A stretch of 47,811 nucleotides of DNA. Source: Lachnospiraceae bacterium. GTDB lineage: Bacteria; Bacillota; Clostridia; Lachnospirales; Lachnospiraceae. Location of the stretch: positions 1 to 47,811 of the forward strand of contig SVED01000008.1 in assembly GCA_015057515.1 (NCBI GenBank), read 5' to 3'. The notes beneath the pieces are model-generated. The model was not told the DNA's origin. It did no database searches and saw only the letters and a program-made list of their open reading frames with translations. Position numbers and translations under genes: made by a program. Shown piece by piece: positions 6,661-25,549 of the stretch (position 1 is the stretch's first letter; each line of letters opens with the position of its first letter).

Positions 6661-6701
6661 TCTGCATTAGATAAACAATATAAAACGAAGGGAGCACGAT
6701 A

Positions 6702-8594
6702 ATGAAAAGTGGTATGAGAAAAGGATTAGGATTTTATCTTCTCCTGATTCTTCTCGGTTTTTGTGTTGTTCTGTGGGTACAAAATAAAAATTCTGTCACA
6801 GACGTAAATTACACAATTGATGATTTTGAAAGAGATGTGAGATTAAATCTCATAGGAACAGTTCACATATATCAGAATGAGGAAGTGCCAACAGGTATAG
6901 TACGTTTTGAGTATAGAGACACTATGGAGGCAGTTGAGTTTTATGCTTCAGACATTAACCTTGTTCAGGACATAGTGGTTGAATATAGTGATGGACTTAT
7001 AAAAATGAGTATGAGCGATGTGACCAGAGAGAGTACATTCCTTACATGGTTGCCAATTATACTTATTGTGTTAATGGTTATATTCCTGTTTACAATGCTG
7101 CTGGGTGGAATGTCTGGTGGCGGCGGAAGCGGCGGCGGTGGCAAGGTTATGAACTTTGGTAAGAGCCGTGCGAGAATGGCTTCTGAGAATGATCAAAAAT
7201 ACACCTTCAAAGATGTAGCAGGACTTGACGAGGAAAAGGAGGACATGGAGGAGCTGGTTGACTTCTTAAAGAATCCTAAGAAGTACAGCGACTTAGGTGC
7301 CAGAATACCTAAGGGTGTTCTTTTGGAGGGCCCTCCGGGAACAGGTAAGACACTTCTTGCAAAAGCAGTAGCTGGTGAGGCTGGTGTTCCGTTTTTCTCA
7401 ATTTCAGGTTCAGACTTTGTAGAGATGTTTGTAGGTGTTGGTGCATCCCGAGTAAGAGATTTGTTTGAGGATGCAAAAAAGAATGCGCCTTGTATTGTGT
7501 TTATAGATGAGATAGATGCAGTTGCCCGTAAGAGAGGTTCAGGTCTTGGCGGCGGTCATGATGAGAGAGAGCAGACACTTAACCAGATGCTGGTAGAGAT
7601 GGATGGATTTGGAACCAACGAAGGAATTATAGTTCTTGCGGCTACTAACAGAGTTGATATACTTGACCCTGCTATTCTTCGTCCGGGACGTTTTGATAGA
7701 AAGATATTGGTTGGAAGACCTGATGTTAAAGGTCGTGAGGCTATTCTTAAGGTTCATGTCAGAAATAAACCATTGTCAGACGATGTAAACTTGCATGAGA
7801 TTGCCAGAACTACTGCTGGCTTTGCAGGTGCTGATTTGGAGAACCTCATGAATGAGGCAGCTATCTGTGCAGCTAAGAAGGATAGAAAGTATATCAACAA
7901 GGAAGATGTTGATAAGAGCTTTGTTAAGATTGGTATAGGCGGTGAGAAAAAGAGTCGTCTTGTTCCGGAAAAAGAAAGAAAGATTACTGCTTACCACGAG
8001 GCAGGTCACGCAATCTTATTCCATCTTTTGAGTGAGGTTGGACCTGTACACCTTGTATCAATTATTCCAAATGGACATGGTGCAGGTGGTTATACAATGC
8101 CACTTCCAGAAAATGATAATGTATTTCTTACCAAGAAGAAAATGCTTCAGGATATTATGGTATCCTTTGGAGGTAGAATTGCAGAGGAAATTATTTTTGA
8201 TGATATAACAACAGGAGCTTCACAGGACATTAAGCATGCTACATCAACAGCACAGGCTATGGTTATAAAGTTTGGTATGTCTGATAAGGTTGGTCTGATA
8301 AATTACGAGACTAACACTAACGAGGAAGTATTCCTTGGCAGAGATTTAGGACATTCAAGAAGCTATGGTGAAGAGGTTGCATCGCTTATTGATACTGAGG
8401 TAAGAAATGTAATCAACGAATGTTATGAGGAAGCAAAGAAAATCATAGAAGAGAACATAGAAGTATTACACAAGTGTGCAAATCTTCTTCTCGAGAAAGA
8501 GCGTATTGACAGACCTGAGTTTGAGGCATTGTTTGGCAGACCAAATACTGAGAATTCAGAAGATCCTGTTCTCGAAATTGGTGGAGAAGAGTAA
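6702..8594 (+). CDS. ftsH: ATP-dependent zinc metalloprotease FtsH
   Basis: A membrane AAA+ protease that degrades damaged and regulatory membrane and cytosolic proteins. Two membrane segments (about residues 9-26 and 115-135) flank an external domain, followed by a glycine-rich linker. The AAA module has Walker A GPPGTGKT at 210-217, Walker [10 protein letters not shown] and the SRH arginine region [10 protein letters not shown]. The zinc site HEAGH lies near residue 432. At 630 residues it is a normal length. GGGAG lies upstream of ATG 6702; a second in-frame ATG occurs four codons on. A strong terminator ends the tilS-hpt-ftsH operon. Confidence 0.97.
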
Positions 8595-8624
8595 TGTCAA
8601 TATATTCAATATAAAAAAATTACT

Positions 8625-8666
8625 AAATCTTCGATTTTTTTCACGGGAAAAATCGAAGATTTTTTG
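8625..8666 (+). terminator. Terminator after ftsH
   Basis: AAATCTTCGATTTTT (8625-8639) pairs with AAAAATCGAAGATTT (8648-8662) around an 8-base loop, followed by further T. The hairpin is symmetric enough to act in both directions. Confidence 0.92.
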
Positions 8667-8813
8667 TTTAAAACGACGATGAAGAACAGGGTGCTATGGT
8701 TAAATTACACAAAAAATAATCCAAAAAAAGCCTATCGGAAACGTACGAAAGACAAAATGCACAAAAATGTACAAAAAAAACAAGAATGTTTGGGCAGACT
8801 TTTTACAGATATT

Positions 8814-8935
8814 TGATATAATAGCATTGTAACCCCCCCAATACATTATATAGTTTTTTGCTACACCCCATAAGTAACAAAATACCTTCTCGAAAAGGGC
8901 AGTCGAACGGTGACTGTCCTTTTCTCCTTTTTCTG
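8814..8935 (+). ncRNA. Possible small RNA or leader upstream of the GH13 gene
   Basis: The 447-base gap between ftsH and the amylase-family gene contains an extended -10 promoter (TG at 8814-8815, TATAAT at 8817-8822; no good -35). About 70 bases later comes a 13-bp hairpin (8892-8904 with 8912-8924, loop GAACGGT) followed by a T/C-rich tail (TCCTTTTTC). No ORF with a ribosome-binding site is seen here on either strand. The transcript would be about 105 nucleotides and starts with a run of seven C. It matches no RNA family I recognise. The alternative is that the hairpin is merely a terminator backing up the ftsH one. Confidence 0.35.
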
Positions 8936-8966
8936 TATATTTTACCAAGTTTTTTGTTGTAAATTA

Positions 8967-8995
8967 TTGTTAAAATCTTAATATTGTATTAAAAT
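8967..8995 (+). promoter_or_regulatory. Sigma-A promoter of the GH13 gene
   Basis: TTGTTA at 8967-8972, 17-base spacer, TAAAAT at 8990-8995. It lies about 46 bases upstream of the ATG and after the hairpin of the candidate small RNA. Confidence 0.5.
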
Positions 8996-9041
8996 AGATA
9001 TTGGTTTTATTATTATTTTTATAGTAGCGGGAGGCGGCATA

Positions 9042-11141
9042 ATGTCAGAGAGAAGACTAAACGCCCACAAAGTTTTTGAATATGTTTTCAATACCAAGAC
9101 AGCCCTTAACATAGGAGCTTTATTTGCTGACGGTACAGAATACTACAGAACCCCTGCTCAGGTGGCAAAAGGAGAGTCTGTTACAATTAAGTTCAGGACA
9201 GCAATAGACAATGTTGACGCTGTCTATTTGATATATGATGGCAATAGAGTGAGGATGTCTGTGGAAAACTCAGATTCCCTGTTTGATTACTATGCATATA
9301 CCATTCCTGCAGTGGATGACAATATAGATTATTATTACGAGGTAGTAGCTGGCAATGTTATTTGTTACTACAACAAACTGGGTACACAGAATCATTTAAA
9401 CCCAGATTACAATTTTCAAATATTCCCAGGTTTCGCAGTGCCTTCATGGGCTAGAGGTGCAGTATTTTATCAGATATTCGTTGATAGATTTTGCAACGGT
9501 GACGAGAGCAACGATGTTCTAGACAATGAGTACTGCTACATTGGTGAGGGAACAAGACGAGTTACAGATTGGTTCAAATATCCTGACAATATGGATGTGC
9601 GTTCCTTCTATGGTGGAGATTTGCAGGGTGTTATGAACAAATTAGACTATCTTCAGGATTTGGGTGTTGATGTTATTTATCTTAACCCTATATTTGTATC
9701 ACCATCTAACCACAAATATGATATACAGGATTATGATTATGTTGATCCTCATTTCGGTGTAATTTTAAAAGACGAAGGCGAGTGTCTGCAGAATGGCTCT
9801 CGAACAAACAAAGAGTCTACCAGATATATCACAAGGGTAACAGACAAAGCCAACTTGGAGGCCAGCAACGCACTGTTTGCAAAACTGGTTGAGGAAGTTC
9901 ACAAAAGAGGTATGAAGATTATCTTAGATGGTGTTTTCAATCACTGTGGCTCCTTCAACAAATGGTTAGATAGAGAATGTATATACGAGAATCAAGAAGG
10001 CTATGAAAAGGGTGCTTTTATTGATCACGATAGCCCATATCGAAGCTTTTTCAAATTCCAGGATCAGTGGAAATGGCCATACAATCCCACTTACAATGGA
10101 TGGTGGGGACATGATACTCTTCCTAAGCTCAATTATGAGGAGTCTGAAAAGCTCTATGAGTATATTATGCACGTTGGGGAAAAGTGGGTTTCACCACCGT
10201 ATAACTGTGATGGTTGGAGACTTGATGTTGCAGCTGATTTAGGACACACAGAAGAATTCAATCACAAGTTTTGGCGAGACTTCCGAAAAAGAGTAAAGGC
10301 GGCCAACCCAGAAGCTATTATTTTAGCAGAGCATTATGGTGATGCGAAGAGCTGGCTTATGGGAGACCAGTGGGATACGGTCATGAACTATGACGCCTTT
10401 ATGGAACCTATTACTTGGTTTCTTACCGGTGTGGAGAAACACAGTGATGAGTTTAGAGGTGATTTGCTTGGTAATCCGGATGCTTTTACCGGCTCGCTCA
10501 GACATCATATGTCAAGATTTAACCAGAATTCACTTGAGATTGCCATGAATGAGTTGTCAAATCACGACCATTCCAGATTTTTGACACGAACCAACAGACG
10601 AGTAGGTCGTATACATACTATGGGACCAGATGCTGCTAATGAAAACATTAACAAAGGTGTTTTTAGAGCGGCGGTGGTTTTTCAGATGACATGGCCTGGA
10701 GCGCCAACTATATACTATGGAGATGAGGCAGGACTTTGTGGTTGGACTGACCCAGATAACAGAAGAACATATCCTTGGGGAAGAGAAGATAAAGAGCTTA
10801 TCAATTTCCACAAAGATATTATAAAGATTCACAAGAATCACGAAGCACTTATGAAGGGCTCGGTTATGTTCTTGTATGGTGGTTATAAGATTATCAGCTA
10901 TGGCAGATTTACTGATAAGCAGGCGGTTATAGTTATTATCAACAACGATTACGAGGACAGAGACTTAAAACTTCATGTAAGACGTTTGGGTATACCTGAT
11001 TGTTCATCTCTCAAACGAGTTATGTTGGCTGATGAAGCGGGATATGACTTAGGTATACGTGAATATGAGGTTAAAAACAATGTGCTTAATATATCAAGTC
11101 CAAAAATTTCGGCTATGGTATTAAGCTACGATAAAGAGTAA
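9042..11141 (+). CDS. GH13 alpha-amylase family enzyme (neopullulanase/cyclomaltodextrinase-like)
   Basis: A 699-residue glycoside hydrolase with no signal peptide, so it acts on imported malto-oligosaccharides in the cytoplasm. An N-terminal beta-sandwich (about residues 15-130, like CBM34 of neopullulanases) precedes the catalytic barrel starting at WARGAVFYQIFVDRFCNGD. Conserved regions are DGVFNH, GWRLDVAAD (nucleophile Asp near 395), AEHYG (acid/base Glu near 430) and LSNHDHSRF (Asp near 509). The GWRLDVA form is typical of the neopullulanase and cyclodextrinase subfamily. GGGAGG precedes the ATG. The substrate cannot be fixed from sequence; panE follows after 29 bases and may be co-transcribed. 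Confidence 0.9.
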   Translation: MSERRLNAHKVFEYVFNTKTALNIGALFADGTEYYRTPAQVAKGESVTIKFRTAIDNVDAVYLIYDGNRVRMSVENSDSLFDYYAYTIPAVDDNIDYYYEVVAGNVICYYNKLGTQNHLNPDYNFQIFPGFAVPSWARGAVFYQIFVDRFCNGDESNDVLDNEYCYIGEGTRRVTDWFKYPDNMDVRSFYGGDLQGVMNKLDYLQDLGVDVIYLNPIFVSPSNHKYDIQDYDYVDPHFGVILKDEGECLQNGSRTNKESTRYITRVTDKANLEASNALFAKLVEEVHKRGMKIILDGVFNHCGSFNKWLDRECIYENQEGYEKGAFIDHDSPYRSFFKFQDQWKWPYNPTYNGWWGHDTLPKLNYEESEKLYEYIMHVGEKWVSPPYNCDGWRLDVAADLGHTEEFNHKFWRDFRKRVKAANPEAIILAEHYGDAKSWLMGDQWDTVMNYDAFMEPITWFLTGVEKHSDEFRGDLLGNPDAFTGSLRHHMSRFNQNSLEIAMNELSNHDHSRFLTRTNRRVGRIHTMGPDAANENINKGVFRAAVVFQMTWPGAPTIYYGDEAGLCGWTDPDNRRTYPWGREDKELINFHKDIIKIHKNHEALMKGSVMFLYGGYKIISYGRFTDKQAVIVIINNDYEDRDLKLHVRRLGIPDCSSLKRVMLADEAGYDLGIREYEVKNNVLNISSPKISAMVLSYDKE

Positions 11142-11170
11142 CTTTTCACCACAGAAGAGGGGGTAAAATT

Positions 11171-12121
11171 ATGAGGATTTTAGTTATAGGTGCAGGAGCG
11201 CTGGGTATTGGTATTGGTGCATCCTTAAAGGATGCTGGTGCTGAAGTTGACTTCTTTGCAAAGGGAGAAACTAAGGCTGCTATAGATGCTTGTGGTATAA
11301 GTAGAAAAGAATGGTTCAAGGATATTGAAATTCCTGCAGGACAGGTAGGAACCTATGATGATTATGCGACATTGCCTGAAGATGCGTATGACTTTATTAT
11401 CATATCAACAAAAACTATAGCAAATGCTGAGGTAAGTGAAAAGCTTGCTGAGTATGCCGGCTGTATGAAGGAGAACTGTAAGATTATATTTATGCAAAAC
11501 GGAATGGGTTATGAAGCTCCGTTTATGGAATTTTTTGAGGACTTCGAGATATATCATAGTAGAGTTATTACTGGATTTAAGAAGGTATCACCTAGTGCTA
11601 GTGTAATAACTGCACATCAGGATCCTATATTTATTGGTTCTATATATGGATATGACAATGCCCCTATCCAGCCGGTGGTGGATGTTCTTAATGCCTCAGG
11701 AATACCAGCGCAGGTAGAGGAGGAGATAAGCAAGGCGCTTTGGGCAAAGCTTATATATAATACAACTCTCAATCCATTGGGAGCTATACTTGGTATGTCT
11801 TACGGTGAACTAGCAGATTCAGAGTACGCCCATTCCATAATGGATATTCTCATTGAAGAAACCTTTGAGGTTATGAATAGAGCTGGTGGAGTGACTTATT
11901 GGAATAATGCCGATGCTTATAGAAAAGTATTATTTGAAGAGATGATTCCTGTTACCTACGACCATCGTTCATCTACACTTCAGGACATTGAAAAGAAGCA
12001 AAAGACCGAGATTGACACTTTGACAGGAGCCCTTCTCAATCTTGCTTCTGCTTGCAATATGCCGGCACCAATGCACAGTATGATGTTTTCACTGGTTAAG
12101 GCACTGGAAGAAAAGTTTTAA
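11171..12121 (+). CDS. panE: Ketopantoate reductase family (ApbA/PanE)
   Basis: A 316-residue NADPH-dependent reductase of the 2-dehydropantoate 2-reductase family, which makes pantoate for coenzyme A. The N-terminal Rossmann motif is GAGALGIGIG (about 7-16). The C-terminal helical domain carries KALWAKLIYNTTLNPLGAI with the catalytic lysine, and a late DHRSSTLQDIEKKQKTEIDTLTGA motif that is typical of the family. Paralogues with other 2-keto acid substrates are common, and no other pantothenate gene is nearby, so the exact substrate is less certain than the family. Confidence 0.85.
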   Translation: MRILVIGAGALGIGIGASLKDAGAEVDFFAKGETKAAIDACGISRKEWFKDIEIPAGQVGTYDDYATLPEDAYDFIIISTKTIANAEVSEKLAEYAGCMKENCKIIFMQNGMGYEAPFMEFFEDFEIYHSRVITGFKKVSPSASVITAHQDPIFIGSIYGYDNAPIQPVVDVLNASGIPAQVEEEISKALWAKLIYNTTLNPLGAILGMSYGELADSEYAHSIMDILIEETFEVMNRAGGVTYWNNADAYRKVLFEEMIPVTYDHRSSTLQDIEKKQKTEIDTLTGALLNLASACNMPAPMHSMMFSLVKALEEKF

Positions 12122-12145
12122 AGCATATAACGGGTAATGTATTGA

Positions 12146-13018
12146 TTATAGATTACCGCCTTTTAAGCGGAACTGCTTTGGAGTAGTTCCGCGATATTTT
12201 TTGAATTGTTTAATCATATGACTACAGTCTGCGTAGCCGGTTTCCTGACTAATGTAGTTCAAATCAAAATCAGTAAAGAGGAGAAAGTCCTCAACCTTAA
12301 ATATTCTAAATCGTTCAATATATTCTTTACATGAAAATCCATACATTTTCTTAAATTTTTTTGCAAAACATGAATAGCTGATACCACATATTTCGGCAAT
12401 TTCAGCCACCTCAATAGACTCTTGAATATGCTGGTCTATATATTCAGTAATGTTATCGATGTTGTAGGAAGTATCTTTCGTATAGATGTCGTTCTCAATA
12501 GTAAAACCATGAGTTTGCCACTGTCTTATCATTATCATCATAATGTTGTAAAGATGAGCCTGAATTAAAAGGTCATATCCAAAGCTTTTGTTTTCAAGCT
12601 CTTTGGCACAATCCAAAAAAAGTTTTTTACAATTAGTGCCAGCAGTGAATTCTGGCGGAAAGTATATTTGCATTTCTTTATCTGCCCCGCTCTTTATAAT
12701 GTTGGTGAGTTTGGGTGAATAAGACGGGGTGGCGGTAAGCCGATTGATATCCAGCTTGATAACTACGTATTTAAGTGGCTTGTCATCCACCCCATAAATG
12801 GAATGTACAGTCTTAGGATGGAAGAATATAAAACCATCTGTAGGAACAACATATTTTATGTGATTGTCGTACAATTCTGCGGTACCTTCCAGAATATAAA
12901 TCATTTCAGCAAAATAATGCCAATGAGGTCGAATTGGAAACTCGTCTTTGGCAGTATCGTATATAAAACATTCGAAGGGCATATTTAGGGTATCCCCAAC
13001 CTCAAATAGTGTAGGCAT
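12146..13018 (-). CDS. AraC family transcription regulator with cupin sensor
   Basis: A 290-residue regulator. The N-terminal half is a cupin-type ligand domain (HWHYFAEMIYILEGTAELY and FHPKTVHSI are visible); the C terminus has two helix-turn-helix motifs (VAEIAEICGISYSCFAKKFKKMYG and LNYISQETGYADCSHMIKQFKKYRG). The frame extends upstream, but the start at 13018 is preferred because AAGGAGT lies seven bases ahead. It is divergent from the MATE exporter across about 180 bp and convergent with panE. It may sense a sugar, as cupin-AraC regulators in this family often do, and may control the MATE gene or itself; neither is shown. Confidence 0.9.
   Translation of the reverse strand: MPTLFEVGDTLNMPFECFIYDTAKDEFPIRPHWHYFAEMIYILEGTAELYDNHIKYVVPTDGFIFFHPKTVHSIYGVDDKPLKYVVIKLDINRLTATPSYSPKLTNIIKSGADKEMQIYFPPEFTAGTNCKKLFLDCAKELENKSFGYDLLIQAHLYNIMMIMIRQWQTHGFTIENDIYTKDTSYNIDNITEYIDQHIQESIEVAEIAEICGISYSCFAKKFKKMYGFSCKEYIERFRIFKVEDFLLFTDFDLNYISQETGYADCSHMIKQFKKYRGTTPKQFRLKGGNL
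12167..12202 (+). terminator. Terminator for panE lying inside the 3' end of the AraC gene
   Basis: GCGGAACTGCT (12167-12177) pairs with AGTAGTTCCGC (12182-12192) around TTGG, with one G-U pair; a run of six T ends at 12202. It is oriented to stop rightward transcription from panE and overlaps the last codons of the convergent regulator. Confidence 0.65.
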
Positions 13019-13198
13019 ATAAAAACTCCTTATGAATAGATTTGTACAATTTTTTGATAGGTATATTATATCATAAATAAAAAGTAAATGGTTAAATACT
13101 TTTTGAAGAGATGCAAGAAATTTTAACACGAATAGTTTAATTTATTTCGAAAATATATCGAATACAAAATATATTACGACGAAAGGAGATGAGATGCT

Positions 13199-17872: not shown

Positions 17873-18601
17873 ATGATTAAGATTGCGATATGTGATGACG
17901 ATTTAAAGCAACAACTAAATATTAAAGGCTTGGTGGAAAATGTTTTTATCAGAGAAGAACAAACCTACGAAATTATCGAGTATACGTCAGGTGAAAAATT
18001 GGTGACTGATATGCCTGAAGCAAGATACGATATTGTCCTACTGGATATAGATATGCCTACTATGGATGGTATAGAGGTTGCCAACAAAATTGATGAGATT
18101 TGGAAAGATGTAAATGTTGTTTTTGTCACAAATAGAAGTGATTTGGTGTTTGAGGCCTTAAGCTGTAATCCATACAGATTTATTCGAAAAGAATATATGG
18201 AGGAAGGTATAGATGAAGCTATGTCGTCCTTGATAACAAAGATATCTAATGAGACTTATGTTGTATCCTTTGGAGACAAGAAGGAACATTATAGCTTTAA
18301 AATTAATGATTTGGTATATATTGAAAGTAAGAAACATTATGTGTATTTTCGTCTTGATGATGAGGAAGAGTACAAGATACGAGATAGACTTGCTAACTAT
18401 GAAAAAAAGCTAGCAGACTATGGTTTTATAAAAATTCACGGAAGCATTTTAGTAAATGTAAGAAAGATAAGAAAAATAAGTAGTGTGGAAGTAGTGTTGG
18501 TAAATGGTGAGAAACTTCCTATAAGCAGAAGCAACTCAGAAAAAATAAAGATGCACTTTTTGAATGAGATGAGGAGACATGTGAATGGAGTTATTGTATA
18601 A
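17873..18601 (+). CDS. LytTR response regulator, AgrA-like
   Basis: A 242-residue two-component regulator. The N-terminal receiver has acidic residues DDD at 8-10 and the phospho-acceptor Asp58 in VLLDIDMP; the C-terminal half is a LytTR DNA-binding domain (LVYIESKKHYVYFRL, then GFIKIHGSILVNVRKIRKI). LytTR regulators bind paired short direct repeats. A matching repeat pair lies upstream of agrB, making this the likely activator. The kinase gene overlaps its 3' end by 17 bases, and the gap to deoC is 46 bases with no clear terminator, so read-through from deoC is possible. Confidence 0.92.
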   Translation: MIKIAICDDDLKQQLNIKGLVENVFIREEQTYEIIEYTSGEKLVTDMPEARYDIVLLDIDMPTMDGIEVANKIDEIWKDVNVVFVTNRSDLVFEALSCNPYRFIRKEYMEEGIDEAMSSLITKISNETYVVSFGDKKEHYSFKINDLVYIESKKHYVYFRLDDEEEYKIRDRLANYEKKLADYGFIKIHGSILVNVRKIRKISSVEVVLVNGEKLPISRSNSEKIKMHFLNEMRRHVNGVIV

Positions 18602-19883
18602 CATATCTGAGATGGTGGCAAATATAATAGATGGTTTACTGGGACCTGTATTTATATCATTACTGTGTGGAAAAAAAGACCATATTAAATGGCATTTGTT
18701 TATAATAGGACTAATAATATCAGCTATACCATTAAGTCTGTTATCATTATATGTTTCTATTGTGCCAATACAGGTACTGGTATTTTTTATAGTATTAATG
18801 TCTTTTTCTATAATTTTTTTGGATAAAGGGATAGGAAAGAAGTTTTATGCAGTTTTCATTTGGAATGTTGTTCTTATGTTGAGCAATATGCTGGTAGTAT
18901 ATGGTGTGGTAAATATTTTTAAGTGGGATAATGAGGTGGTTCTGCAATCAGGAAGCGTGCAAAGAGTGTTGCTTATTATAATTCATAAAATAGTGCTGGC
19001 TTTAATGTGTATATTATTTATTTATTATGATAACCGTCATTCTATGGATTATAAGCAATGGTTAATCACTATTATCCAATTTGTTGGTACACTCTTTATT
19101 GGGGCTATAATAACTGACTTATATATGAAAGATATTTTTGACGAATCAAACGTTGGTGAGTTAATTATTATGACATTGGCTTTGTTTGTTATATGTATAG
19201 CAGTATGTATATGCCAACATATTATAAATAAGCAAAATCAGTATAAGTTAGAATATGAAAAGCTTCGCACACATTTAGAAAGTGAAGAGAGAAACATTGA
19301 GAAAATACAGGAACTATATGAGAATAGCAGTATATTACGACATGATATAAAACATTATGCCGTAATGGTTAAGGAGCTATTAAAGAAAGAAGAATATGAA
19401 AAAATAGAGCACATTATGGATGATATGATAGAGGAAAAACTGGTTAATGACACAGTTTTATACACATCAAGTGGTATGCTAAATGCTGTATTAAATAATA
19501 AGCTATCCATATGTAAAAAGCATAATGTAAGATTTGATGTAGAAGTAAGTTGTACAATTCCAGAGGAAAAACTTCTTAACATATGTGTTGTTATGGCTAA
19601 TCTTTTGGATAATGCCATTGAAGCTGAAAAGAAAGAGGATGATAAAGCCGTATGCTGTAAAATAAAAAAGAATAAGGATATGTTAAATATATATATAAGT
19701 AATAACATTTCCGAATCAGTGTTAGAAGCTAATCCAAAGCTTGTCACAACAAAAAATGATAAACGACAACATGGCTTTGGCACAAAAAGTATAATAAAAA
19801 GAGTGAAAGAGATGGACGGAATATATAATGTAAGTGAAGATAGGAAAAAGTTTATAATAGAGATTTTTGTACCATATGCGTAG
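18585..19883 (+). CDS. GHKL sensor histidine kinase, AgrC-like
   Basis: A 432-residue receptor kinase. The first 210 residues form about six hydrophobic segments; a coiled coil follows; then the phospho-acceptor motif LRHDIKHY (His near 253) and an ATPase domain with an N box (VVMANLLDNAIEAEKK) and a glycine box (HGFGTKSIIKRV). This is the architecture of peptide pheromone receptors of the AgrC type. The gene overlaps the response-regulator gene, so the pair is one translational unit. The expected ligand is the processed product of the small agrD-like gene downstream. Confidence 0.9.
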   Translation: MELLYNISEMVANIIDGLLGPVFISLLCGKKDHIKWHLFIIGLIISAIPLSLLSLYVSIVPIQVLVFFIVLMSFSIIFLDKGIGKKFYAVFIWNVVLMLSNMLVVYGVVNIFKWDNEVVLQSGSVQRVLLIIIHKIVLALMCILFIYYDNRHSMDYKQWLITIIQFVGTLFIGAIITDLYMKDIFDESNVGELIIMTLALFVICIAVCICQHIINKQNQYKLEYEKLRTHLESEERNIEKIQELYENSSILRHDIKHYAVMVKELLKKEEYEKIEHIMDDMIEEKLVNDTVLYTSSGMLNAVLNNKLSICKKHNVRFDVEVSCTIPEEKLLNICVVMANLLDNAIEAEKKEDDKAVCCKIKKNKDMLNIYISNNISESVLEANPKLVTTKNDKRQHGFGTKSIIKRVKEMDGIYNVSEDRKKFIIEIFVPYA

Positions 19884-19891
19884 GTGAAGTT

Positions 19892-19925
19892 TGCAAATCT
19901 TGCCAGAAATCTGCAAATCTTGCCA
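19892..19925 (+). repeat. Two 14-bp direct repeats, likely LytTR regulator site
   Basis: TGCAAATCTTGCCA occurs at 19892-19905 and again, identical, at 19912-19925, a 20-base period (about two helical turns). The second copy ends five bases before the -35 box of the agrB promoter. Paired direct repeats at this place are how AgrA/ComE-type LytTR activators bind. The motif was not noticed elsewhere in the window. Confidence 0.75.
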
Positions 19926-19930
19926 AGCCA

Positions 19931-19960
19931 TTGAAAAAAAGTAGAAAAGAAAGCTATCAT
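19931..19960 (+). promoter_or_regulatory. Promoter of the agrB-agrD-exporter operon
   Basis: TTGAAA at 19931-19936, 18 bases, TATCAT at 19955-19960. It lies 20 bases before the AgrB start and directly downstream of the direct repeats, the position expected for an activated promoter. Confidence 0.65.
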
Positions 19961-19980
19961 ATCTGTAAGGAGGATATTCT

Positions 19981-20559
19981 ATGATTTCAGATATGATGGC
20001 TTTTTATTTGTTGAATAAAAAACTAATTACTGAGGATGAATTGCCCATATATAAGTACGGATTAAGTGCGTTTGTGAATAGTTTTTCTCAGATTATTTTG
20101 TTATTCCTCTTGGGGGTTTGTTGTGGAGTGGTGTCTGAAACTGTGGCGTTCTTGTTGGTGTTTATATTAATAAGGCGTTTTACAGGAGGTTATCATGCGG
20201 ATACAAAGATGAAGTGCTTGGTGTGTGGTGTATTTATGTGGTTTATTGCCACCTCGGTGAGCAAAGTTTCATTATCTCATAATGTGATTGTGATTTTATA
20301 TCTGGTCATAGTTATATTCTCTGTTGTTATAACATTTAAATATGCACCAGTAGAGCATTATAATAAGCCGTTGAGCAGAAGCATATATGAAAAAAATAAG
20401 AAGTATAGTCGTATTTGCCTGGGTGTTTTCGAATTGCTGGGAGTGTGGCTGCTTTTTATTGATACATCTCTCAGTTATACCATTATGATGACTATTTTTC
20501 TGGTAAGCATATTAATTCTTATAGGAAGGAGGGATTGTCGTGAAAAACTTAGTAGGTAA
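19981..20559 (+). CDS. agrB: Accessory gene regulator protein B (pheromone-processing membrane protease)
   Basis: A 192-residue membrane cysteine endopeptidase that cuts the AgrD precursor C-terminal to the ring and closes the (thio)lactone. The motif RRFTGGYHADTKMKC is present, with His72 and Cys79 seven residues apart as in the staphylococcal enzyme. About five or six hydrophobic segments fill the rest (for example 35-50, 53-64, 81-93, 100-113, 150-184). AAGGAGG precedes the ATG. The agrD-like gene overlaps its last 20 bases. The catalytic pair being intact argues that the system is working. Confidence 0.94.
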   Translation: MISDMMAFYLLNKKLITEDELPIYKYGLSAFVNSFSQIILLFLLGVCCGVVSETVAFLLVFILIRRFTGGYHADTKMKCLVCGVFMWFIATSVSKVSLSHNVIVILYLVIVIFSVVITFKYAPVEHYNKPLSRSIYEKNKKYSRICLGVFELLGVWLLFIDTSLSYTIMMTIFLVSILILIGRRDCREKLSR

Positions 20560-20686
20560 GGTTATCAAAGCAGTTGGTGAAGAAACTGCAAAGATTACCG
20601 TTAATAAGGCTTCGGTGTGGATGTTATATCAGGAAGAAGAACCACAGTCAGTAAGAGAAAGATTTGTGGCAAGTGAGGAGGAATAG
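20540..20686 (+). CDS. agrD: AgrD-like cyclic autoinducer precursor with serine in place of the ring cysteine
   Basis: A 48-residue gene with a GTG start and a strong ribosome-binding site (GGAAGGAGGG) inside the end of agrB. The peptide has the three AgrD parts: an amphipathic leader (MKNLVGKVIKAVGEETAKITVNKA), a short hydrophobic core (S25-V-W-M-L29), and an acidic tail with the conserved proline (YQEEEPQSVRERF). Clostridial precursors typically have Cys-x-W-x-x at the core; here the position is Ser and the whole peptide has no cysteine. Staphylococcus intermedius AgrD also uses Ser and gives a lactone instead of a thiolactone, so a Ser-lactone ring is plausible. The next gene starts two bases after the stop. 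Confidence 0.82.
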   Translation: MKNLVGKVIKAVGEETAKITVNKASVWMLYQEEEPQSVRERFVASEEE

Positions 20687-20688
20687 AG

Positions 20689-21159
20689 ATGAAGAAATTA
20701 AGAAGCAGATTAGTAATGATGACAATGGTAGCAATGTTGGCAATTATAGGGTTTAGTAATAGTGGCGATACCTTGGCTGGAAATACCGCTGATGCTACAT
20801 GGTCATTTTCGCTGAGTGTTAGTAATTCAAATATTCAAAAAATAACCAAAAGGGAGAAAACCGATACTACAAAAATTTATTTACAATGGAGTAGTACCTA
20901 TGGTGGTAATTTATCTGCTATATACGTTTCTCCATATGGTGCAAATAGTTTATCAGGTGGTTCATCTCCTGCAGGAACAAGTGGTGGCGGAGAGGTGTTT
21001 TATAGAGTGCCTTCAACTGGACAATATTCTTTAACCAATTATGTTAAGGAACTTGGATATGGATATGCTACAGTAGGTATGAAGGGTGCTGCCGGTTCGG
21101 GAACTGCGAAAGGCAACTGGAGTCCTGACAGCCGATACAATTATACTATTTTATATTAA
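20689..21159 (+). CDS. Small secreted protein of unknown family in the agr operon
   Basis: A 156-residue protein with a signal peptide (basic MKKLRSRL, hydrophobic MMTMVAMLAIIGF, likely cut near TLAG-NTADA). The mature part is about 125 residues, rich in Ser, Gly, Tyr and Thr, without cysteine, and looks all-beta: DTTKIYLQWSSTYGG, AIYVSPYGANS, then SLTNYVKELGYGYATVGMKG and a final GNWSPDSRYN. I do not recognise the family. It begins two bases after agrD with a ribosome-binding site inside agrD (GAGGAGG), so it is co-expressed with the pheromone. Its position suggests it is the secreted effector of the circuit, perhaps bacteriocin-like; that is inference. Confidence 0.8.
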   Translation: MKKLRSRLVMMTMVAMLAIIGFSNSGDTLAGNTADATWSFSLSVSNSNIQKITKREKTDTTKIYLQWSSTYGGNLSAIYVSPYGANSLSGGSSPAGTSGGGEVFYRVPSTGQYSLTNYVKELGYGYATVGMKGAAGSGTAKGNWSPDSRYNYTILY

Positions 21160-21169
21160 GGAGTGCCAT

Positions 21170-21955
21170 ATGAAAAGAGTATGCTACATAATTGGCATTA
21201 CAGTACTCTTTTTGTGCATTTTCCTTGTTGGTTTAAAGCGTAGAGGTGAACGGGAAGAGCAGGCAGTTGCTCCTTCCAACATCTCTGTAAGAGATGAGCC
21301 GGAGGACTATGTGGAGGAAGATATTAGTATTGCCACAGATGGGGACGCAGATAGGTATGCTGAAAAAAATGAAGATAATGTATACACAATGTCAGATGGA
21401 GCCTGTGTATATGATGGCTTTGCTTATGAGATTGTTGAGGCTAAGATGTATGATTCTCTTGACGAATTTATGCAGATGGATGGATATAATGAAGAATATC
21501 ATAATTTACACAAATTTTGGACAGAAGAGGACAAAACTGTTTCAGTGATTGTATATGTAAAATATAAACTTACCAATATAAGCGATTCAGCTTATAGAGA
21601 CTTAAATATTACTCAATTGGGTGTTGCATATGTCAATGAAGCAGGAGAAACAAGTGGTGGAATTGATTCATATGGAGCAGGACCATATATTGAAGCAATA
21701 TATGCAACCATCCCGGAAAATGCCATAGATGAAAAAAATTTTGATTGTCCTAGACTTGCGCCCCAGGAAACCATTGAACTTGAAATCGCATTTCTTAACA
21801 CAGGTATAAATAAGGATGGTGTTTGGTGTAAGCCTTACGAAATGTATGATGGGGAGTGGTATTTTACAAGCGAGGGCTACAATATATGTATGACTACAGT
21901 ATATAACATATATGAGGACACGGAGCATATAAAAATAAAAATGGATATGGATTAA
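21170..21955 (+). CDS. Membrane-anchored protein of unknown function (1 of 2)
   Basis: A 261-residue protein with one N-terminal membrane segment (YIIGITVLFLCIFLVGL), a low-complexity acidic stretch (about 30-75), and an extracellular domain beginning ACVYDGFAYEIVEAKMYDSLDEF. The domain has alternating beta-type patterns (SVIVYVKYKLTNISDSAYRDLNI, ETIELEIAFLNTGI) like the DUF4352-type immunoglobulin-fold proteins of Firmicutes, but no family is claimed. The in-frame ORF extends upstream; ATG 21170 is chosen because TAAGGAG, overlapping the previous stop, precedes it. The opening of the domain resembles the next gene product. Confidence 0.75.
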   Translation: MKRVCYIIGITVLFLCIFLVGLKRRGEREEQAVAPSNISVRDEPEDYVEEDISIATDGDADRYAEKNEDNVYTMSDGACVYDGFAYEIVEAKMYDSLDEFMQMDGYNEEYHNLHKFWTEEDKTVSVIVYVKYKLTNISDSAYRDLNITQLGVAYVNEAGETSGGIDSYGAGPYIEAIYATIPENAIDEKNFDCPRLAPQETIELEIAFLNTGINKDGVWCKPYEMYDGEWYFTSEGYNICMTTVYNIYEDTEHIKIKMDMD

Positions 21956-21980
21956 AAATTTAAGATAGGAGAAATAAAAT

Positions 21981-22559
21981 TTGAAAAAATACAATCTTAA
22001 AAAGATATGCATTTTGGCTGTCTGTATATTAATAATAATTCTTGTTATATGTCGTGTTTCTTATGTTACAAAAAATGCCCGTGTTCCTGATTTGAATGTT
22101 GTACCCCAGGGGGATAGTGTTGTTTACAAGGGATTGGGATATAGGATAGTAGATGCGGCTTTGTGGGAGTATGACTATTTTTTTGAACAGAACGAAAATC
22201 TTAATAGATATAAGGAAGAATTAATAGATAATGAGATAATGCTGCTTGTTGTGGAAATGGAAATTACAAAGGAGGGTGATAATGGCTATATAGACTATTA
22301 TATGCCTATAAAATATTTCTATGGATTTAACGGTGTATCCCCCTTTATGTTTGCTGATATGAATCCGTCTTTGGTTGATGGTACATTTCACTCAGGTGAT
22401 CATATATATGTGGTTTATGAGATATACAAAAATTCTCTATTGGAAAGTCAATGGAGTGATGTGGTAAATTTTCAGGTTGAATATAGAATTCTACTTGGAA
22501 GCTATCCTGAAAAAAATGAACTACAGATTACAGATATACGAAGAGGTGGTGCAGAATGA
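21981..22559 (+). CDS. Membrane-anchored protein of unknown function (2 of 2)
   Basis: A 192-residue protein with a TTG start behind AGGAG. One membrane segment (residues about 9-24, ICILAVCILIIILVICRV) is followed by an extracellular domain starting SVVYKGLGYRIVDAALWEYDYFF, which lines up with VYDGFAYEIVEAKMYDS of the preceding protein. The domain ends with a beta-rich part (YVVYEIYKN, VNFQVEYRILLGSYPEKN). It overlaps the permease gene by four bases (ATGA), so it belongs to the exporter operon. Could be an accessory or immunity protein; no function is established. Confidence 0.75.
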   Translation: MKKYNLKKICILAVCILIIILVICRVSYVTKNARVPDLNVVPQGDSVVYKGLGYRIVDAALWEYDYFFEQNENLNRYKEELIDNEIMLLVVEMEITKEGDNGYIDYYMPIKYFYGFNGVSPFMFADMNPSLVDGTFHSGDHIYVVYEIYKNSLLESQWSDVVNFQVEYRILLGSYPEKNELQITDIRRGGAE

Positions 22560-23431
22560 TACAATTAGTAAAATTGGAAATAAGTAAAGCGTTAAAGACA
22601 AAAGGCTTTTTTGTAGCAATAGGAATCGGACTGGTTATTTCCATACTGCAAAGCTATTGGTTTTACAATAATGTGTTTACCAATAATAATGAAATATTCG
22701 AGTATTTGATGTCCTTGTCCCCCACAGATTCCCATTATTATGACTTGTGGTTTGAAAATGTTTTTTTAGAAGGATGGCTGGGCTGTGAAGTATATTCTCC
22801 ATACAATAATTTGTTTTATCTTGCCATGCCTTTGCTTGCAGTATTACCCTTTGGCCACAGCTTGTATATGGAGTGGAATAAGGGATATTCATCACAGATT
22901 CTTATAAGAAGTAACAGAAAGAAGTATTTTACAGCAAAGTTCTTAGCAGTATTTATGAGTGGTGGTCTTGCAATTGCAATACCGTTAATATTTAATCTTA
23001 TTATCACAGTATGTTATCTGCCTATTATTCCGGGGGATCCTGTATCTGCGCAGGTGGCAGTTTTTAATATAGGTTTATGGCCGGATTTGTATTTTAATCA
23101 TCCTCTATTATATGCTTTTGCATATATAGCTCTTGATTTTATATGTGGGGGATTAATGGCTTGTATGGCTCTTACTGTCACACATTTTTTTGATAGCGTA
23201 TTTGCTGTCATGCTGTTTCCTTTATTGTTGAATTGTATATTATATTATGGTCTGGACAGTATAGAACCAGCATCCAGAATTTATAATATAAGCTGGTTTG
23301 TCAATCCTGGTCAGCCGGGAATTCGAAACGATTTTAATGCGGTGATTATAACATCAGGGATATGGTTTTTATTACTGGTTATACTTCATTTCGCTTCTAA
23401 TATAAAAAGAGATGTAATAAAAGAGAGGTAA
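22556..23431 (+). CDS. ABC transporter permease (agr operon, first)
   Basis: A 291-residue integral membrane protein with about six segments (near 18-38, 87-105, 125-155, 180-205, 217-235, 262-280) and the opening LVKLEISKALKTKGFF typical of ABC-2-type permeases of the antibiotic/bacteriocin self-protection and export kind. It overlaps the gene before it by four bases and is followed by the ATPase after three bases. Together with the second permease at 24073 it would form the membrane part of one heteromeric exporter. Confidence 0.82.
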   Translation: MIQLVKLEISKALKTKGFFVAIGIGLVISILQSYWFYNNVFTNNNEIFEYLMSLSPTDSHYYDLWFENVFLEGWLGCEVYSPYNNLFYLAMPLLAVLPFGHSLYMEWNKGYSSQILIRSNRKKYFTAKFLAVFMSGGLAIAIPLIFNLIITVCYLPIIPGDPVSAQVAVFNIGLWPDLYFNHPLLYAFAYIALDFICGGLMACMALTVTHFFDSVFAVMLFPLLLNCILYYGLDSIEPASRIYNISWFVNPGQPGIRNDFNAVIITSGIWFLLLVILHFASNIKRDVIKER

Positions 23432-23434
23432 ACA

Positions 23435-24076
23435 ATGAAAATTGAGCTAAAAAATATTACAAAAAAAATAAAGAAAAATACTGTGATTGATGATATAAAT
23501 TATACATTTACAGGAGGATGCATATATGGTCTTGCAGGAAAAAACGGATGTGGAAAAACCATGCTTATGCGTCTTATTGCAGGGCTAATTTATCCCACAG
23601 AAGGCAAAGTATACATAAATGATAGGATGCTCGGAAAGGATATATCTTTTCCGGACAGTATAGGTATACTGATTGAAAATCCAGAGTTTTTGAACGATTA
23701 TACAGGATATGAAAATCTAAAAATGCTGGCAGGCTTACAGAAAAATGTCAGTGATGAGGACATAAAGAATACTCTGGAAAGTGTGGGACTGGACTATAAC
23801 GACAAAAGAAAATTCTATAAATATTCCCTTGGAATGAGACAGAGACTGGGCATTGCCGCTGCGATTATGGGCAAGCCAGACATTATTTTACTGGACGAGC
23901 CAATAAATGCAATTGATGAGGAAGGCGTTGCCCAGATAAAAGAGTTGATTCGTGGACTGGTGGAAGAAAACAGGATAATAATCATTGCCTGTCACGATAA
24001 GGAAGAGATGGATTATCTTGCAGATAAAAAACTTATGATGTCAGCAGGTAAAATTGTGGAGGAGATAATTATATGA
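23435..24076 (+). CDS. ABC transporter ATP-binding protein (agr operon)
   Basis: A 213-residue ATPase. Walker A GLAGKNGCGKTM (near 33-44), the ABC signature YSLGMRQRLGIA, Walker B IILLDEPINAID and the H-loop histidine in IIACHDKEEM are intact. It is shorter than most, with no C-terminal extension. It lies between two six-segment permeases with a 3-base gap and a 4-base overlap (ATGA). The arrangement permease-ATPase-permease fits BcrA/NisF-like exporters that expel or protect against peptides. Substrate unknown. Confidence 0.93.
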   Translation: MKIELKNITKKIKKNTVIDDINYTFTGGCIYGLAGKNGCGKTMLMRLIAGLIYPTEGKVYINDRMLGKDISFPDSIGILIENPEFLNDYTGYENLKMLAGLQKNVSDEDIKNTLESVGLDYNDKRKFYKYSLGMRQRLGIAAAIMGKPDIILLDEPINAIDEEGVAQIKELIRGLVEENRIIIIACHDKEEMDYLADKKLMMSAGKIVEEIII

Positions 24077-24921
24077 TATTTAGATTTGTTTCACATGATT
24101 TAAATGAAGGCATAATCCGGTACAGAAAAAGATATCTGCTAATAATTCTTGTGGCAATTATATCCTGTTTCATGCTGGACAGAAGTACTGAATATATTAC
24201 TACAACCTATGGAGGATATTGGACCCCGCTTGAATATGGAATCAATTTATTTTTAGGAAGATATCCATTTGTATATAGACCTGACAGCATGGATACCTTC
24301 ACAGTACCCTTTGTATGGATATTGACATATATTTTACTTGCTTTTGTTATAGGGGATTATGTACAAAAAGATATGCAGGGCTATGGTATGTATATGATGC
24401 TCAAAAGTAAAAAGCGTTCCTATTGGTGGATTTCAAAATGTGTGTGGTGTGTTATTGTAAATTTGGTCTATTTTGGATTAATATGGTTGACATATATATC
24501 CTATGCGTGGATGAAAAATGGGGATATAGCCATTTATAAAAACTTATTCATTAGAAGTAATTATTTTGGTTGGCGTTTTGAAGATAAGAGCGTAGGATTT
24601 TTAATAATGATGGTTGTGGTTATGCCGATTTTAGTAGGTGTTGTACAGTCCATAATACAGATTTTTTTATCTGTTGTGTTTGATGCAACAGTAACTATGG
24701 TGTTTGTTGCCGGGGGACTGGTTTTAAGCTGCTATTATGGTAACCCGTTAATCCCCCATGGATACGGTATGTTACTAAGATATTATAAAGATGAATCCAA
24801 CCCTGATTTTGTTCCAAATGATATTCAAAGCGGAATAGTGATTTTGCTTACAATGATAGTTATTGCTACAGTAGTTGGGTATGTTTTTTTTAGAAGGAAA
24901 AATATACTTAGTAGACGGTAG
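24073..24921 (+). CDS. ABC transporter permease (agr operon, second)
   Basis: A 282-residue membrane protein with about six hydrophobic segments (near 20-36, 75-98, 115-142, 175-205, 210-225, 255-275). It overlaps the ATPase gene by four bases and is the last gene of the apparent agrB-started operon. No clear terminator follows; a short gap leads to a lipoprotein gene. It shares little visible sequence with the first permease apart from its topology. Confidence 0.82.
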   Translation: MIFRFVSHDLNEGIIRYRKRYLLIILVAIISCFMLDRSTEYITTTYGGYWTPLEYGINLFLGRYPFVYRPDSMDTFTVPFVWILTYILLAFVIGDYVQKDMQGYGMYMMLKSKKRSYWWISKCVWCVIVNLVYFGLIWLTYISYAWMKNGDIAIYKNLFIRSNYFGWRFEDKSVGFLIMMVVVMPILVGVVQSIIQIFLSVVFDATVTMVFVAGGLVLSCYYGNPLIPHGYGMLLRYYKDESNPDFVPNDIQSGIVILLTMIVIATVVGYVFFRRKNILSRR

Positions 24922-25030
24922 ATAATAGACAAAATACCAGTGTTCAGGCATAATCACTATTTTTTGACGTTTTATGTGATATATAAATAACTTAAACGAA
25001 GGAAATCTTTTAATTAAAATAGGAGGACGT

Positions 25031-25429
25031 ATGAAAAAAATACACTTTATATGCTTATTATTGTTACTTTGCTTATGTGGATGTTCCAAAGAATCTGACA
25101 AGGCTGAAAAGGAGGTTAATTCTGGAACAGATGCTTCAGATGTTGAATACATAGATGAGTCGGATTTTTTGCAATCCATTGATGAACAGGCTAAAATCTG
25201 GCAAAATGGTTGTGATAGTATTATAACAGATATATCCAATATCGAATGGGTAGAAAGTGTAAGCATTACACCTTCTGGTTATGAAGAATATATGTCTGCC
25301 GGAAAATGTACCATAACTTGCTCTGTGAATGATGTTGCGCCAGATGAAGCTGATGTAAGGAAAACTCTTGAAGATTATCTGGATGCAGCTAATATTATTA
25401 CAAATTACGAGTTGATTATTATAAATTAA
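25031..25429 (+). CDS. Small lipoprotein of unknown function
   Basis: A 132-residue protein with a lipoprotein signal (MKKIHFICLLLLLCLCGC, lipobox cysteine 18), then an acidic linker and a small domain (SDFLQSIDEQAKIWQNGCDSIITDISNIEWVESVSI). No known family recognised. TAGGAGGA precedes the ATG. A TTGACG at 24964-24969 could be the -35 of its own promoter, with no good -10. It lies 109 bases after the exporter and may be a surface accessory or immunity protein of that locus. A strong terminator closes the region. Confidence 0.72.
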   Translation: MKKIHFICLLLLLCLCGCSKESDKAEKEVNSGTDASDVEYIDESDFLQSIDEQAKIWQNGCDSIITDISNIEWVESVSITPSGYEEYMSAGKCTITCSVNDVAPDEADVRKTLEDYLDAANIITNYELIIIN

Positions 25430-25494
25430 GTGCAACAGGCAAATTGTTATGTCAGACGGGAAAATATGCTAAGCATACTACTATGTGAAAAGTG

Positions 25495-25549
25495 CCGTGA
25501 ATTGTATATATACTAAGGATTATGTGTATATACAATTTACGGTTTTTTT
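25495..25549 (+). terminator. Terminator closing the agr region
   Basis: A 19-bp stem (25495-25513 with 25524-25542) with two G-U pairs, a 10-base loop and seven T. Likely end of the agr-exporter-lipoprotein region. Confidence 0.93.

Follow-up and report, generated by a model that had tools for sequence, protein, structure and literature searches.

In known agr quorum-sensing systems, AgrB carries out the processing and export of the autoinducing peptide (AIP). In Staphylococcus aureus, the switch composed of AIP, AgrC and AgrA works through a direct-repeat operator, and the secreted phenol-soluble modulins (PSMs) are accompanied by an ATP-binding cassette (ABC) transporter, Pmt, for export and self-protection. 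The PSM genes and the transporter lie outside the agrBDCA operon. Here we describe an agr locus from a Lachnospiraceae bacterium (GenBank assembly GCA_015057515.1, contig SVED01000008.1, positions 1 to 47,811; this whole stretch of 47,811 nucleotides is referred to as the window), which has the same type of switch, a direct repeat and an ATPase similar to PmtC. It differs from the S. aureus system in that a cassette of genes for a secreted protein and an ABC transporter follows agrD, the candidate effector is predicted to be a folded protein that has a signal-peptide-like N-terminus of its own, and the agr genes run in the order A-C-B-D.

Other described systems share parts of this arrangement. 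The LanFEG transporters likewise consist of a small ATPase and two permeases, and the lantibiotic-protection (LanF) family TIGR03740 is the best subfamily match of the window ATPase (165 bits), but the cut-off of 309.75 is not reached and the cluster has no lantibiotic synthesis genes. Lactococcin 972 also combines a small secreted beta protein with an ABC transporter. However, Pfam and NCBIfam scans, including those of all 12 members of our alignment A1, gave no match to its family, and its fold was not among the structure matches listed for the secreted protein, which does not exclude a shared fold. A first-pass annotation of this DNA considered that agr loci usually hold only agrBDCA. An additional effector gene has a precedent in Clostridium acetobutylicum, where the Agr-controlled gene CA_C0082 is located directly downstream of the agr operon; its product is LanM-like and needed for granulose formation, and the abstract of that study describes neither a secreted protein nor an ABC cassette (PMC10301443).

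Results

The window almost certainly contains a complete agr locus, as the first-pass annotation had proposed, with AgrA, AgrC, AgrB and AgrD each matching their own family (Table 1). The AgrC-like kinase has about 6-7 transmembrane (TM) segments by hydropathy, and the catalytic His and Cys of AgrB are present as H72 and C79, spaced as in AgrB. AgrD has an amphipathic leader, a 5-residue ring of the kind that starts with Cys or Ser, and an acidic, Pro-containing tail. The predicted AIP ring is Ser-Val-Trp-Met-Leu (SVWML), followed by the tail YQEEEP; with serine at the ring position, the signal would be a lactone and not a thiolactone.

All of the open reading frames (ORFs) annotated earlier were recovered with the same order and coordinates. 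The overlap is 17 bp between agrA and agrC and 20 bp between agrB and agrD, and only 2 bp separate the agrD stop codon from the ATG of the secreted-protein gene. The junctions after that gene are, in order, gaps of 10 and 25 bp, an overlap of 4 bp, a gap of 3 bp, an overlap of 4 bp, and finally 109 bp before the lipoprotein gene; all junctions after agrD up to the second permease are within 25 bp. The overlaps of 4-20 bases that had been described throughout the agrB half are therefore only partly right, since they hold for agrB/agrD and for two junctions of 4 bp, whereas several others are short gaps. In a terminator scan, candidate sites were no commoner than in shuffled sequences and none fell in the junctions from agrD to the last permease gene. 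From this layout a single operon starting on the agrB side is well supported, and it is very probable that one AgrA-driven operon takes in the cassette.

The secreted protein begins with a hydrophobic, signal-peptide-like segment. A set of 299 genomes of the same family yielded relatives in 11 genomes besides that of the window, and wider searches added more. Their alignment shows three common motifs, R-x-K-x-D, NY-x-x-E in the center and GxWSPDS at the C-terminus. PF10916 (DUF2712) is matched at some level by 6 of the 12 family members (best 1.1e-34), and its cut-off of 22 bits is passed by L025 (113.6 bits), L053 (54.7 bits) and L027 (27.4 bits). (In these labels G denotes the genomes compared, G000 being that of the window, L denotes loci or stretches, and C denotes contigs.) A profile of 12 DUF2712-like rows recovered the window protein at 7.8e-14 and none of 1800 shuffled sequences. 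By this transitive profile evidence the window protein is a divergent relative of DUF2712, although it has no direct Pfam or NCBIfam match itself and does not reach the PF10916 cut-off. The mature protein, modelled from 21 rows, is predicted to be an all-beta sandwich (predicted local distance difference test score, pLDDT, 94.9; predicted template-modelling score, pTM, 0.87); an earlier full-length model from 12 rows was too weak (pLDDT 61). A scan of named genomes with the secreted protein gave only a doubtful Legionella match. A DUF2712 relative was also compared with a phage and a plasmid collection; neither gave a match, and such an origin was rejected.

The secreted protein and its ABC genes form a conserved cassette. 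We mapped 20 non-congeneric cassette loci, two of which lie on contigs that end too early, and in all 18 usable loci homologues of both permeases stand beside the secreted-protein relative. The ATPase and the 192-residue anchored protein are likewise present at almost every locus with a contig long enough to include them. The iterated profiles behind the count of 18 were run on a small set and their E-values thus overstate confidence; single-sequence matches agree for most loci. In two loci, L025 (G203, 8263-13156) and L147 (G1038, 6683-11013), the secreted DUF2712-type protein and its anchored partner are duplicated in tandem.

The gene just before that of the secreted protein is an AgrD-like ORF or agrB in the window and in G1033, G1055, G1052, G1034 (at a contig edge, with agrD only), two loci of G1058, G002 and G268. 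The AgrD cut-off is passed in G1033, both loci of G1058, G002 and G268, whereas the AgrD-like ORFs of G1055 and G1034 are below it and that of G1052 has no AgrD match. Hence the linkage of the secreted protein and transporter to agrB/agrD that the first-pass annotation asked to see in relatives is found in G1033, G1055, G1052, G1058, G002 and G268. In G624 and G402, agrB is close to the cassette but divergent from it, and at five more loci the agr-type genes nearby are limited to regulators or kinases. Overall, about one third of the loci have the cassette docked behind agrD or next to agrB, with several AIP types. The rings of the docked loci include both Ser and Cys types, which suggests that the pairing of agr and cassette arose or was exchanged several times. 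Because the secreted protein and the permeases stay together, often without agr nearby, the cassette is, judged from gene neighborhoods, an independent unit that was repeatedly docked to agr.

Exchange of the cargo among congeners is seen at one genomic site. Downstream of deoC, G1033 has agr and cargo as in the window. At this site G1055 has the same agr followed by an unrelated 127-residue secreted protein and another ABC system, and in G1054 and G1036 this agr is combined with a third cargo; the product of its secreted gene ends in SGTWKP, and the frame is broken in G1054. A natural deletion in G1036 (L094, G1036:C16, 5513-5878) took out the agrB end, agrD and the beginning of the secreted gene; it fuses the agrB start to the secreted-gene end and leaves agrA, agrC and the transporter genes in place. 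No agr is present at the deoC site in G1042, G1027 and G1032. The AIP rings differ between the alleles (SVWML, STWIM, SAWMV and SVWMC), and between G000 and G1033 agr diverges most in AgrD, in the C-terminal half of AgrB and in the N-terminal region of AgrC.

The high synonymous divergence (dS) of the cargo between G000 and G1033 (1.3-2.4) at first suggested a cargo swap between these two genomes, but the orthologues deoD, MATE and deoB are equally divergent (1.3-2.4) and this was rejected. It is the agr module (17873-20686 versus L093) that is unusually alike, with a dS of 0.28-0.53, and the agr modules of the two genomes were perhaps recently exchanged by recombination. When agrB and the kinase of a second agr locus of both genomes are included, the range is 0.23-0.53, against 1.3-2.4 for several neighbors.

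The promoter with repeats in the first-pass annotation is real: two 20-nucleotide copies, 90% identical, lie just upstream of a putative −35 box. The direct repeat also precedes agrB in G1033 and G1055, and homologous sites have similar −35 and −10 boxes with a spacing of 17-18 (read by eye). The −10 box (TATCAT) is located in the 5' arm of a terminator-like hairpin, the ribosome-binding site and ATG of agrB are in its loop, and the 3' arm falls within the opening codons of agrB, with a T run behind it. The fold has a z-score of −4.0 at the window site, and six of eight sites fold well below shuffled sequences (−4.0 to −10.1). Among 304 ORF starts ranked by stem score, the window and its orthologue occupy ranks 1-2, and the window, G1033, G1054 and G1055 all have their agrB start in the top six. 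The stem covaries, as seven distinct sequences pair fully and nine of 10 pairs are changed on both sides, although the pairing percentage is biased since the arms were picked for complementarity; the fixed position of the hairpin relative to the −10 box, the start codon and the T run is the stronger argument. Similar stems, included in this comparison, were found at G1029, G1040 and two non-agr operator sites, and apart from G1029 and G1040 no other agr type tested has the hairpin at its agrB. With the −10 box inside the 5' arm, read-through from agrAC should stop and transcripts started by AgrA should escape, so that the hairpin may act as a terminator on read-through. We report such a −10 box within a covarying, terminator-like hairpin as new.

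A pattern search for the repeat, allowing up to three mismatches, found three sites in the window's own genome and none with the reversed-pattern control. One site is upstream of a paralogue of the window lipoprotein (G000:C43) and lacks the hairpin; another precedes a secreted protein that is cut by the contig end. In G1033 an operator-like site is upstream of a second DUF2712-type copy, followed by a third, partial copy, and it adjoins the same neighbor gene as the C43 site (a 409-residue protein, 89% identical). On this stretch (L126, G1033:C196, 2034-4513), the DUF2712-type copies have an AgrA-type operator and no ABC genes on the contig; they are possible solitary effectors. This reuse of the operator, also reported here as new, may represent a small agr regulon.

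Among ATPase families, the one in the window comes closest to those of lantibiotic protection and PSM export. In addition to the TIGR03740 match, it scored 142.2 bits against NF047568 (PmtC of the PmtABCD PSM exporter; cut-off 375) and, in the comparison with the lactococcin 972 system, 117 bits against TIGR03608 (cut-off 254.85). The anchored proteins and permeases have no significant direct Pfam or NCBIfam match. The 261-residue anchored protein has a clear homologue in G1033, where the lipoprotein is reduced to a 52-residue remnant. A role in anti-phage defense was rejected, as only generic ATPase matches were obtained.

Table 1. Coordinates of the agr locus, its cassette and associated signals within the window
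Feature	Coordinates	Strand	Basis
agrA-like response regulator (receiver + LytTR)	17873..18601	+	PF04397 3.3e-19; PF00072 8e-17
agrC-like GHKL sensor kinase	18585..19883	+	PF14501 8.7e-20; hydropathy; H-box LRHDIKH
Direct repeat, 2 x 20 nt, core TGCAAATCTTGCCA, putative AgrA operator	19886..19925	+	copies 90% identical
Putative agrB promoter, TTGAAA-18-TATCAT	19931..19960	+	similar −35/−10 at homologous sites
Terminator-like hairpin, 18-bp stem, AGAAAGCTATCATATCTG / CAGATATGATGGCTTTTT	19948..20005	+	folding, stem rank, covariation
agrB peptidase	19981..20559	+	PF04647 5.2e-39, above cut-off; H72...C79 motif
agrD precursor	20540..20686	+	TIGR04223 22.9 bits, cut-off 19
Secreted protein, 156 aa, divergent DUF2712 relative, C-terminal GxWSPDS	20689..21159	+	profile, alignment, structure model
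Membrane-anchored protein, 261 aa, weak DUF5027 similarity	21170..21955	+	PF16430 0.0074, below cut-off; one N-terminal TM
Membrane-anchored protein, 192 aa, cassette member	21981..22559	+	homologues in relatives' cassettes
ABC permease A, 291 aa	22556..23431	+	homologue in 18/18 usable non-congeneric loci
ABC ATPase, 213 aa, LanF/PmtC-like	23435..24076	+	PF00005 4e-29; PDB 6xjh 7e-33
ABC permease B, 282 aa	24073..24921	+	homologue in 18/18 usable non-congeneric loci
Lipoprotein, 132 aa	25031..25429	+	paralogue G000:C43, 8e-23
Terminator-like long inverted repeat with T run	25488..25549	+	3' of lipoprotein gene

Other agr loci were seen in the course of this work. A second one in the same genome (L029, G000:C20, 9075-17346; ring SMPIM) shows the same theme with a different cargo: behind agrBD come small secreted proteins of 149 and 122 residues, neither of which matches DUF2712, and an ATPase with two FtsX/MacB-like permeases. 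In L030 (G000:C115, 9730-12402), an agrB-like gene with no recognized agrD faces the genes of a kinase and a regulator, which are on the opposite strand. L117 (G1032:C10, 6753-14431) has the order agrA-agrC-agrD-agrB, then a membrane protein of 776 residues and a number of proteins as long as WXG100 proteins (97-98 residues), and this agr may lie beside a type VII secretion locus.

Discussion

Close relatives have this switch at the corresponding site but with other secreted proteins, which looks like a density-triggered, exchangeable weapon-and-shield unit. We lean, by a modest degree, towards agr-controlled antagonism with ABC-mediated self-protection, analogous to PSM/Pmt in S. aureus. The agrA and agrC genes would be expressed upstream, and AgrB would trim AgrD to a serine-lactone AIP with the SVWML ring. 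At high density the AIP would activate AgrC, and AgrA would bind the 20-nucleotide direct repeat and fire the promoter inside the hairpin. A single transcript would then carry agrB, agrD and the genes for the DUF2712-type secreted protein, the two anchored proteins and the LanFEG/Pmt-like transporter. The hairpin would stop and translationally mask transcripts reading through from agrAC, so that expression of the cargo would depend on AgrA. The secreted beta-sandwich protein would leave by the general secretion route and act on competing Gram-positive neighbors or on siblings of another AIP type, while the transporter and the anchored proteins would protect the producer.

Several observations weigh against this reading. 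A structure search with the model of the secreted protein found nothing specific to toxins above background; its matches were common beta-sandwiches (Z about 7), and no solved structure was distinctive among them. In the literature collection searched, DUF2712 returned no paper, and no activity is known for any DUF2712 protein; searches for DUF2705 and DUF5027 also returned no papers. The secreted protein is under purifying selection between G000 and G1033 (dN/dS, the ratio of nonsynonymous to synonymous divergence, 0.20). A few copies are without ABC genes on their contigs (G1033:C196, G1034:C22). About half of the cassette loci have no agr-type gene nearby, so that the earlier placement of the cassette within the agr circuit stands for the linkage, in this genome and in relatives, and not for the cassette as an intrinsic part of agr.

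Could the secreted protein be a density-controlled public good, such as an adhesin, matrix or surface coat, with the ABC transporter handling other traffic, for example lipid or peptide? Its beta-sandwich resembles carbohydrate-binding and endospore-appendage modules, among many others, and another operator site precedes a secreted protein with a carbohydrate-binding look by eye. However, the tight conservation of the secreted protein with the ABC genes over many genera and their joint exchange at one site fit an effector/immunity pair better, and we consider a public good unlikely. A resistance function, with the ABC transporter and anchored proteins countering lantibiotics or other peptides from outside, the secreted protein serving as decoy or sensor and agr providing merely the timing, would agree with the affinity of the ATPase to lantibiotic protection and with the many cassettes that have neither agr nor another regulator nearby. 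We judge it quite unlikely, as the secreted protein is usually encoded by the first gene and is sometimes duplicated or without ABC genes, as an effector would be.

The first-pass annotation offered export as one role of the transporter. Although the genes are co-operonic and the ATPase also resembles the PSM exporter component PmtC, the transporter need not export the secreted protein, which has its own signal-peptide-like segment; for this reason we read it as a self-protection system. Nor would the AIP need it, given the role of AgrB, and different transporters accompany the same agr module in G1054 and G1055, which makes an exporter improbable. A chance neighborhood of unrelated agr and cassette, which the frequent occurrence of the cassette without agr might suggest, is hardly credible given the 2-bp spacing, the conserved adjacency behind several agrD types and the reuse of the operator.

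Taken jointly with antagonism and self-protection, these features allow a wider, tentative proposal. The agr system of this genus may be a fixed dock for exchangeable cargo of secreted effectors and ABC immunity matched to AIP alleles. Silencing at low density would be due to the terminator hairpin containing the −10 box, such that only transcripts initiated by AgrA escape termination and expose the agrB start, and the same repeat, partly with the hairpin, would mark other secreted effectors as a regulon. If true, this would provide a function for the widespread, unstudied secreted family DUF2712 and its ABC cassette, and would show how quorum-sensing alleles and antagonism genes travel jointly in gut-type Bacillota. 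It would also supply a simple signature, the repeat and a −10 box inside a terminator, for finding agr regulons.

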